From the NCBI GenBank assembly GCA_013368515.1, contig JABWCI010000006.1:1-64000 (forward strand): DNA of 64,000 nucleotides. Direction: 5' to 3'. The notes under the pieces are model-generated. The model was not told where the DNA came from. It did not search any database and worked only from the letters and a program-made list of their open reading frames with translations. A program made the translations under genes and the position numbers. The stretch comes from Candidatus Altimarinota bacterium (GTDB taxonomy: Bacteria > Patescibacteriota > Gracilibacteria > BD1-5 > UBA6164). Below, in pieces: positions 44,552 to 63,032 of the stretch; the stretch's first letter is position 1, and the number at the start of each line of letters is the position of its first letter.

Positions 44552-45268
44552 ATGAGACTTGATCAATATATAACAGAAAAATTGGAAATAAGCCGCAACA
44601 AAGCACAAGCAATAATAAAAGCTTGAAATGTTTTTATAAACTGAGAAAAAATTATAAAAACATGATTTGAGGTAAAACAAAATATGGAAATAGCAATAAA
44701 TGAATTTGAACAAACAAAATATGTAGCTAGAAGTGCTATGAAACTGAAATGATTTTTAGAAGAAATAGACTTAAAAATAAAAGATTTTGTTTGTCTTGAT
44801 ATATGAAGTAGTACAGGATGATTTTGTCAAATATTACTTGAAAATGATGTAAAAACTATATATGCTATTGATGTTTGAACAAGTCAACTTCATGATATAG
44901 TTAGAAATAATAAAAAAGTAATAGTAAAAGAAAATACAGATATAAGAAACCTAGAAAAACTAGAAAATATAGACTTGATAACTTGTGATGTAAGTTTCAT
45001 AAGCCTTGAAATGATACTGCAAAGTATAATAAATCAGATGAATAATTCTACTATTTCCCTACTACTTTTTAAACCACAATTTGAAGTTGGAAAACAATTT
45101 ATAAATAAAAAATGAGTAGTAATTGATGAAAAAATAAGTGATAAAAAGCTAAATGATTTTTTACAAATTTGTAGAGATAATTGATTACAAATACTTAAAG
45201 TATCTAAATCAAAACTAGAATGAGAAAATGGTAATAAAGAAATATTTATTATGATTAAAAAAAAGTAA
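44552..45268 (+). CDS. tlyA: TlyA-family rRNA 2'-O-methyltransferase
   Basis: 238 residues. S4 RNA-binding domain at 1-60 (MRLDQYITEKLEISRNKAQA), then an FtsJ-like Rossmann methyltransferase: YVARSAMKLKGFLEE, SAM loop DIGSSTGGFCQILLEND, IDLITCDVSFISLEMIL, FKPQFEVGK. In the family it methylates cytidines of 16S/23S rRNA. The stop is in the GC-rich palindrome at 45268-45291. Confidence 0.93.
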
Positions 45269-45291
45269 AAGAGCCCCCTAGGGGGCTCTTT
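45268..45291. terminator. Perfect GC-rich palindromic terminator
   Basis: AAAGAGCCCCCT with AGGGGGCTCTTT, a perfect 24-bp palindrome, far richer in GC than any other hairpin here except 60839-60873. It lies between tlyA and the convergent small TM gene. Confidence 0.9.
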
Positions 45292-45546
45292 TCAATCAGC
45301 GTAAACAGTTCTTGGTTTTTGAGGAATAGCTAGCAGAGCTAAAAGAAACAAAAACTGTAAAGCAATGATTTGTTTCCAAAACATGGCAAAAATCCACATG
45401 CTGAAAAACAAAACAACACTAAACAAAATATATTCAAAAATGTAGCTAGTCACTCCTTTAATATGACTAGAAAAAAGAAGAAAAATATGCGGGATCAAAA
45501 GTGAAAGACAGAAAATTACTGGGTTATTTCCAATGAAATCAGACAT
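45292..45546 (-). CDS. Small membrane protein in standard-code style (TGA stop)
   Basis: 84 residues, three hydrophobic stretches (VIFCLSLLIPHIFLLF, IFEYILFSVVLFFSMWIF, IIALQFLFLLALLAI), tail IPQKPRTVYAD. It differs from its neighbours: no internal TGA, balanced codon use with GGA/GGG, an AAAGG Shine-Dalgarno-like sequence, a TTGACA promoter, and a TGA (45292-45294) at the end directly before a GC-rich terminator. Read with code 25 it would run on through the terminator. No family recognised. It looks acquired from a standard-code donor. Confidence 0.65.
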   Translation of the reverse strand: MSDFIGNNPVIFCLSLLIPHIFLLFSSHIKGVTSYIFEYILFSVVLFFSMWIFAMFWKQIIALQFLFLLALLAIPQKPRTVYAD

Positions 45547-45583: not shown

Positions 45584-45611
45584 ATGTTACATAAAATAAA
45601 AACAATGTCAA
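45584..45611 (-). promoter_or_regulatory. Promoter of the small TM gene
   Basis: TTGACA (minus strand, 45611-45606), 16-bp spacer, TAACAT. About 38 bases before the ATG. Confidence 0.5.
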
Positions 45612-60603: not shown

Positions 60604-60631
60604 TTGACAAATATATATTTATATTTATTAT
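60604..60631 (+). promoter_or_regulatory. Promoter of the small basic protein gene
   Basis: TTGACA at 60604-60609, 16-bp spacer, TATTAT at 60626-60631; transcription would begin about 45 bases before the ATG. Confidence 0.65.
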
Positions 60632-60671
60632 AAGGAAAGCAGAATAGCGCTTCGCATATCTGCTGAAAAAA

Positions 60672-60677
60672 AGGAGA
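60672..60677 (+). promoter_or_regulatory. Strong Shine-Dalgarno site
   Basis: AGGAGA core (AAAGGAGATC) ideally placed before the ATG at 60685. Such sites are absent before nearly all other genes here. Confidence 0.75.
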
Positions 60678-60684
60678 TCTCATC

Positions 60685-60819
60685 ATGGCTGCACGCAAAT
60701 CCAAAGCAACGGTAAAGGCGAAATTTCGCAAAGCCGCTGCTCGCAGAGCTCGCAAGGCAAGCGAGAAAAACTCTCGTAACAAACCCATGAATACGGGGAA
60801 TAAAAATGGACGCAAATGA
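60685..60819 (+). CDS. 44-residue Arg/Lys/Ala-rich basic protein, TGA-terminated
   Basis: Sequence begins MAARKSKATVKAKFRKAAAR and continues with RARKASEKNSRNKP. It is like histone-H1/HCT-type or other nucleic-acid-binding tails, with no named family. GC-rich codons (CGC, GCT, AAG), GGG/GGA for Gly, no internal TGA. Ends at TGA (60817-60819), 20 bases before a GC-rich terminator. Under code 25 the frame would read on past the terminator, so TGA works here as a stop or the gene comes from a standard-code donor. TTGACA promoter and a strong Shine-Dalgarno fit the second view. Confidence 0.75.
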   Translation: MAARKSKATVKAKFRKAAARRARKASEKNSRNKPMNTGNKNGRK

Positions 60820-60838
60820 GAGTTCACCCCCTCTAAAA

Positions 60839-60873
60839 AGCACCCGCAATCTTGCGGGTGCTGATTTTTTTTT
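60839..60873 (+). terminator. GC-rich terminator of the small basic gene
   Basis: AGCACCCGCAA / TTGCGGGTGCT stem with a run of nine T. Confidence 0.92.
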
Positions 60874-62335: not shown

Positions 62336-62602
62336 CTTCTAGTCGTAAATTCGTAAATAAAATTGGAGATTATTAATATCTCTGAACTTCATTAAAGCTA
62401 TTCTATAAAAATAAAACCTCTAGTCAAAATTATATTTTACCTTGACGCATTTTTATGTTTAAATTTTGTAAACAACATACGACTTCCTTTTGTAATGCTA
62501 GCTTTTCTTAGTTTTTAACATTTAAAGTAAAAATATTTTATATATGAATGTTAAAAACAAAAATTTGTTGTATTTTTTATAAAAAAATTTATACTACTAA
62601 GC
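62336..62602. other. dnaA-rnpB divergent intergenic region
   Basis: AT-rich with inverted TTTTTAACAT / ATGTTAAAAAC (about 62512-62560) but no TTATCCACA-type box. It must hold both promoters; an origin here is possible but unproven. Confidence 0.5.
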
Positions 62603-63000
62603 GTGAGAGGAAGTATCTACTGCAAGTTTTACTTGGAGAGGAAAGTCTGGACATCACGAGAGAAACATAGAAGATAACAACTTCGGTTTAAGAATATAAT
62701 GAATAAATCTTAAATACCACAAGTGCCACAGAGACTATACTATTCCGCAAGGGAGAAAGGTGAAAAGTCATTTAGTGTTTATTTTTATTACTACATATAC
62801 TAGTGTGTGTGATAATTTTAAGCTATAGATGATTTCTAGGAAACTAGAAGTGGTAAACTGTATGTGATGCAATGGGAATGGTAGTTTTAGAGGTTATTCT
62901 CTCTATTGCTTCAAAAAACTATACCCAGCTCGAGCTTATGAGTAATTGTAGGCCTAGATAGATTGATACTTAGACACAGAATCCGGCTTATTACTCTCAC
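62603..63000 (+). ncRNA. rnpB: RNase P RNA
   Basis: About 398 nt. The conserved 5' P4 strand GAGGAAAGTCTGGACATCAC and the 3' strand ACAGAATCCGGCTTATT are visible, with P1 pairing GTGAGAG to CTCTCAC at the ends and an internal GATGCAATGGGAATGG region. It matches the 5' tRNA-processing ribozyme found in bacteria. Adk follows 32 bases downstream. Confidence 0.93.
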
Positions 63001-63032
63001 TTTAAAAATATTTAAAAATAAGATAATAAAAT

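Follow-up and report, generated by a model that had tools for sequence, protein, structure and literature searches.

In which cell is a gene meant to be expressed that is written in the standard genetic code, carries its own signals and lies in the chromosome of a bacterium reading TGA as glycine? This question is raised by positions 60604-60873 of contig JABWCI010000006.1 (assembly GCA_013368515.1, Candidatus Altimarinota bacterium; Gracilibacteria; BD1-5; UBA6164), of which we analysed a stretch of 64,000 nt, the window. Throughout, G000 denotes the genome under study, G001-G005 its congeners, and G021 and G023 genomes of other genera; all genomes compared are MAGs.

Genetic code and translation machinery

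G000 uses genetic code 25 (Gracilibacteria), with TGA supplying about 74-79% of the glycines. In the window, the neighbours of the cassette, here called unit K, contain 906 in-frame TGA per ~19,200 codons and stop at TAA or TAG only. Both a tRNA with the anticodon UCA and a tmRNA were found, and the search of G000 yielded no release factor above the RF2 cut-off. The single release-factor match has 15 in-frame TGA and scores below that cut-off, and therefore reads as RF1. The tRNA-Arg anticodons of G000 (L052-L080) are UCU, CCU and GCG only, so that CGA and CGG appear to be without a decoder, whereas both codons are used in unit orthologues, including those of G002 and G004. The 16S rRNA (L092:12828-14304) ends in GGACTATCTCCTT, not GGATCACCTCCTT, and native genes are without a Shine-Dalgarno sequence. 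Loss of the anti-Shine-Dalgarno was considered and ruled out: CTCCTT is retained in the 16S tail, and pairing with AAGGAG is still possible. A tRNA-like gene at L126:15873-15972 has tRNA-Lys(CUU) with an intron as its only ARAGORN reading.

Unit K, a standard-code cassette beside dnaA

Unit K lies between a DUF4012 gene and dnaA, the latter adjoined by a class A RNase P RNA (window 62601-63006, +). The promoter, AAGGAG, ORF, TGA stop and GC-rich terminator described in the first-pass annotation are all found at their positions (Table 1), and the setting it gave holds in two congeners as well. The promoter, aligned in two congeners, matches the consensus at 11 of 12 positions and is the top-scoring one within the 20 kb scanned; the terminator is the strongest of the same 20 kb. 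The contrast with the AT-rich neighbours is equally borne out: these are code 25, whereas GC across the window peaks in unit K (0.52 over 120 nt vs a mean of 0.23), where it exceeds even that of the RNase P RNA. CGC, present once in 18,017 window codons (ORFs of at least 150 aa), yet occurs several times within the 44 codons of unit K. Read in code 25 (TGA = Gly), translation runs through the unit's own terminator hairpin. The leader hairpin is similar in G004 and re-paired using other bases in G002, and we infer that it serves 5' protection.

Table 1. Coordinates and properties of the standard-code units; positions refer to the window.
Feature	Position	Strand	Details
Sigma-70-type promoter of unit K, TTGACA-16-TATTAT	60604..60631	+	TTGACA 60604-60609, 16-nt spacer, TATTAT 60626-60631
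5' leader hairpin of unit K, AGCAGA..TCTGCT	60638..60665	+	MFE fold
Shine-Dalgarno of unit K, AAGGAG	60671..60676	+	sequence
Unit K ORF, 44-aa Lys/Arg/Ala-rich protein, standard code	60685..60819	+	ATG 60685, TGA 60817-60819
Intrinsic terminator of unit K, GC-rich stem + T run	60839..60873	+	AGCACCCGCAATCTTGCGGGTGCT + GATTTTTTTT
Unit A, 272-aa membrane-anchored protein			TGA stop
Unit B, CDP-alcohol phosphatidyltransferase			PF01066 5.9e-21
Unit C, 66-aa protein			TGA stop
Unit D, 63 aa
Unit E, 137 aa			TGA stop
Unit F, 107-aa protein			signal-peptide-like start
Unit G, 36-aa basic protein
Unit H, 97 aa
Unit I, 84-aa membrane protein, standard code	45292..45546	-	TGA stop
Promoter of unit I, TTGACA-16-TAACAT	45584..45611	-
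Terminator of unit I, AAAAGAGCCCCCTAGGGGGCTCTTTT	45267..45292	-
Unit J, glucosaminidase-domain protein			signal-peptide-like start; PF01832 1.6e-16

Homologues of unit K are located between DUF4012 and dnaA in G004 (89% aa, TAA stop) and G002 (66% aa, TGA stop), and AAAAAGGAGA at the Shine-Dalgarno is unchanged across the three species. With dN/dS values of 0.04 (G000-G004) and 0.15 (G000-G002) and mostly third-position differences, sequence comparison confirms unit K as a real gene, syntenic and under purifying selection in the congeners. Conservation with TAA stops in all code-25 relatives, named beforehand as the finding that would speak against a foreign cassette, is not what we see: the stops are TGA, TAA and TGA. 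The junctions are the same in three MAGs, which excludes an assembly chimera. A chance ORF or structured RNA is ruled out by the third-position substitutions, and known RNAs gave sub-threshold matches only. L34 (rpmH), which is expected near dnaA, and other known families were likewise rejected, there being no Pfam or NCBIfam match; an L34-like ORF is located elsewhere (L114:13976).

The proposed homologue search was successful within the genus, and no homologue was confirmed outside it in family libraries, phages, plasmids, IMG/VR or GTDB contigs; a match in G079 (E 9e-4) is an unconfirmed candidate. A different cassette occupies the slot in G003 and G005, where it encodes members of one Cys/His protein family (50-51 aa), and in G001, where it has a 21-aa basic ORF (L018, L021, L022), while it looks empty in other genera among the dnaA loci read. 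The protein model shows a helix at residues 7-31 followed by a disordered tail. From this model, it is plausible that the basic helix binds nucleic acid; a target such as nucleic acid, the ribosome or the membrane is a guess on our part.

At least eleven units of similar build

Across 850 kb, corresponding to 74% of the G000 genome sampled by stretches, each standard-code ORF received a score for its promoter, its terminator and how foreign its codon usage is, and the candidates were then checked by eye. This revealed at least 11 scattered monocistronic units, K and ten more (A-J), a number that is a lower bound because 74% of the genome was sampled. Of the two standard-code islands initially claimed, unit K is the second and unit I probably the first; the count of two fell well short. 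Orthologues of unit I in G002 and G004 (58-60% aa) have TAA stops and one aligned flank. Using a strict scan for Shine-Dalgarno, promoter, ORF and terminator, we found seven units in the real and none in the reversed sequence. Among these seven matches is L093:8243-8833 (+), a possible further unit with a 196-aa ORF, a signal-peptide-like start, AAGGAG, promoter and terminator; its ORF has 11 GGN glycines and AT-rich codons, without foreign codon usage.

Among the encoded products are small basic proteins and membrane proteins as well as the CDP-alcohol phosphatidyltransferase and the glucosaminidase-domain protein, the last of which, together with one other unit protein, looks secreted from its sequence. 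Unit C is modelled as a complete domain that extends up to the TGA (pLDDT 91.5), and structure comparison gave no significant match for this fold.

Codons, stops and signals of the units

None of the 62 glycines in the 11 units of G000 is encoded by TGA, compared to 74% expected (at the rate of native genes, log10 P is about -36). For arginine, CGN is used 26 times and AGR 24 times (26/50 CGN), vs 20 and 478 times in the native window genes. The units stop at TGA (5), TAA (4) or TAG (2). A Shine-Dalgarno sequence precedes 10 of the 11 units vs 1% of 429 native leader genes, and no clear one was found in 22 native housekeeping genes including those for ribosomal proteins. Upstream, 82% of the units vs 11% of native leader genes have TTGAC, and downstream, 91% of the units vs 5% of native genes have a terminator; like the codon values, these fractions are partly circular because promoter, terminator and codon score picked most G000 units, whereas Shine-Dalgarno, stop codon and orthologues were not selected on. 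In congeneric orthologues, chosen by homology only, the corresponding fractions are 68% for the Shine-Dalgarno, 82% for TTGAC and 79% for the terminator, with 14 TGA vs 14 TAA stops. High-expression codon bias as the cause was ruled out: the ribosomal protein and EF-Tu genes have a lowered TGA use, but keep AGA and a GC3 of ~0.1. In Shine-Dalgarno, promoter, stop and codons, the units show what is expected of a host-expressed gene, namely the recipient's signals and code and not those of the carrier.

Conservation and evolution

Apart from F, which has relatives in other genera, all units A-J have orthologues in congeners. The DNA on one or both sides aligns in every unit tested, in most cases on both. 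Synonymous divergence is mostly 0.5-2.3 (dS), with some pairs closer and others saturated, at dN/dS values of mostly 0.04-0.4; in some units there are signs that congeners have recombined. The composition of the units is nevertheless kept: GC3 across species is ~0.2-0.6 vs 0.06-0.08 for dnaA, and pooled fourfold-site GC in six genomes is 0.18-0.37 vs 0.02-0.04 for native genes. Unit C orthologues stop at TGA in 6/6 cases, including G021 of another genus, and those of unit A in 3/3, while the stops alternate between TGA and TAA in units K, B, E and I. Shine-Dalgarno and TTGAC also accompany the homologues of units B and F from other genera, and the B homologue in G023 additionally has a TGA stop and terminator. 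Neutral drift would make the codons AT-rich and home use would favour TAA over TGA; from this we infer expression in a standard-code cell. Likewise, the fact that the unit proteins are under selection while code 25 is disregarded suggests that translation takes place elsewhere.

Origin and purpose of the units

We therefore consider it probable that the units, at least 11 in number, are kept in standard-code language because their products are made in another cell, most simply a host or prey. The main rival is a standard-code mobile pool of phages, plasmids or host bacteria in which the units would evolve and from which they would be recombined repeatedly into fixed slots, as passengers resembling phage morons. 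Like morons, the units are inserted singly, have an odd composition and bring a promoter and terminator of their own, and standard-code-compatible phages targeted by Gracilibacteria have been published (PMC10746230). The unit trees moreover conflict with dnaA, as G000 and G001 are dnaA sisters (dS 0.26) but differ by a dS of 1.75 in unit B; one flank of units B and G is likewise more diverged, and in G001, G003 and G005 the K slot contains small basic genes that are unrelated to K. Yet searches of 50,697 phage and 72,556 plasmid records (both sets with K, C and the slot alternative, one of them with the other units), of IMG/VR (by pattern, with K, C, A and F) and, for K alone, of GTDB contigs from beyond the genus found no homologue; both flanks align for most units, and the AT-rich promoters sit inside genus-conserved DNA. 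We thus regard such a pool as an unlikely source, though one to be taken seriously.

Recent horizontal transfer of ordinary host genes that have not yet ameliorated would explain standard code, Shine-Dalgarno, terminator and codons together, and capture from a host was one of the two readings offered by the first-pass annotation. It is highly improbable in light of synonymous sites that are near saturation while GC is still high in all species, of a conserved and not patchy position within the genus, and of TGA stops retained across genera. Recent capture is not supported for units that are mostly syntenic, without drift to AT-rich codons, and no close donor sequence was found in the searched phages, plasmids, IMG/VR or GTDB contigs. 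We attach equally little probability to home use under special control, in which the TGA would give a non-stop product tagged by tmRNA, and protein would appear only if tagging or TGA decoding fails. The terminator lies ~15-60 nt past the TGA, so that read-through meets the transcript end, which speaks for such control; however, the stop of K, B, E and I is TGA in some orthologues and TAA in others, and Shine-Dalgarno, codon usage and promoters are left unexplained.

Returning to expression in another cell, the second reading of the first-pass annotation, production for delivery into a host, fits the evidence best, although delivery itself is putative. In the mechanism we propose, whose chances of being correct in full appear evenly balanced, the recoded, parasitic-type bacterium keeps a dispersed standard-code regulon and passes its units on, as DNA or mRNA, to other bacteria, where the host makes the effectors. 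The units, as DNA or hairpin-capped mRNA, would reach the host cytoplasm and be expressed by host RNA polymerase or ribosomes, and their proteins would adjust the host; unit K may contribute a small, basic and helical protein whose target would be the nucleic acid, ribosome or membrane of the host. Inside the Gracilibacterium, TGA-ended units would be read through into the terminator and give non-stop products. Scattered single-gene units with own promoter and terminator would suit the transfer of random chromosome pieces or of single capped mRNAs. Counting against this mechanism, about half of the unit orthologues end in TAA and could be made at home, too, the 16S tail of G000 is still able to pair with AAGGAG, and some units bear the signs of recombination noted above. 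As to possible hosts, the code-25 relatives Vampirococcus lugosii (PMC8080830) and Strigamonas (PMC13059738) are described as epibionts or predators of Gammaproteobacteria.

If true, a bacterium would reprogram another one by host expression of foreign genes and not by protein injection. The code difference would make such genes easy to spot, by eye or script, the units would be candidate effectors for uncultivated Gracilibacteria, hosts could be inferred from unit codon usage, and host control by CPR bacteria would become testable. Even without transfer, there is a conserved second coding language in one chromosome, unexplained by current codon-reassignment ideas.

Relation to known systems

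The T-DNA of Agrobacterium is carried on a bacterial replicon and contains genes and control signals written for expression in another cell. The units resemble it as they are carried by a bacterium and have the signals of another cell, but their recipient signals are bacterial, they are scattered single genes, no borders were seen, and the genetic code differs. Phage morons are single genes with own promoter, own terminator and odd GC. The units share these signals and the odd GC; unlike morons, they are chromosomal, occupy conserved positions across the genus and use another genetic code. Prophage context was not seen at the unit sites examined, as K lies between dnaA and DUF4012 and other units have genus-conserved flanks.

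The nearest published idea is that of standard-code-compatible phages of Gracilibacteria and Absconditabacteria that may use code-25 as well as standard hosts (Liu et al. 2023, PMC10746230). There as here, the standard code is linked to code-25 bacteria and interpreted as a means of exploiting hosts with that code; in contrast, the units are bacterial chromosomal genes for which no phage or viral homologue was found. The accessible parts of the reports on Vampirococcus lugosii (PMC8080830) and Strigamonas (PMC13059738) make no mention of standard-code genes, and our literature search, covering freely available main texts, found no publication that describes sets of standard-code genes on code-25 chromosomes.

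With regard to a transfer apparatus, 13/13 genomes searched have a native-code gene for a VirB4/TraG-like ATPase, which scores under the family cut-off. No type IV secretion cluster is visible beside it, the neighbours being a SpoIIE phosphatase and L11, and because of these neighbours the ATPase is treated as a lead only. Besides its native-code copy, G001 contains a VirB4-like ATPase without in-frame TGA (C16:39059-40564), which, from its sequence, possibly belongs to a standard-code mobile element.
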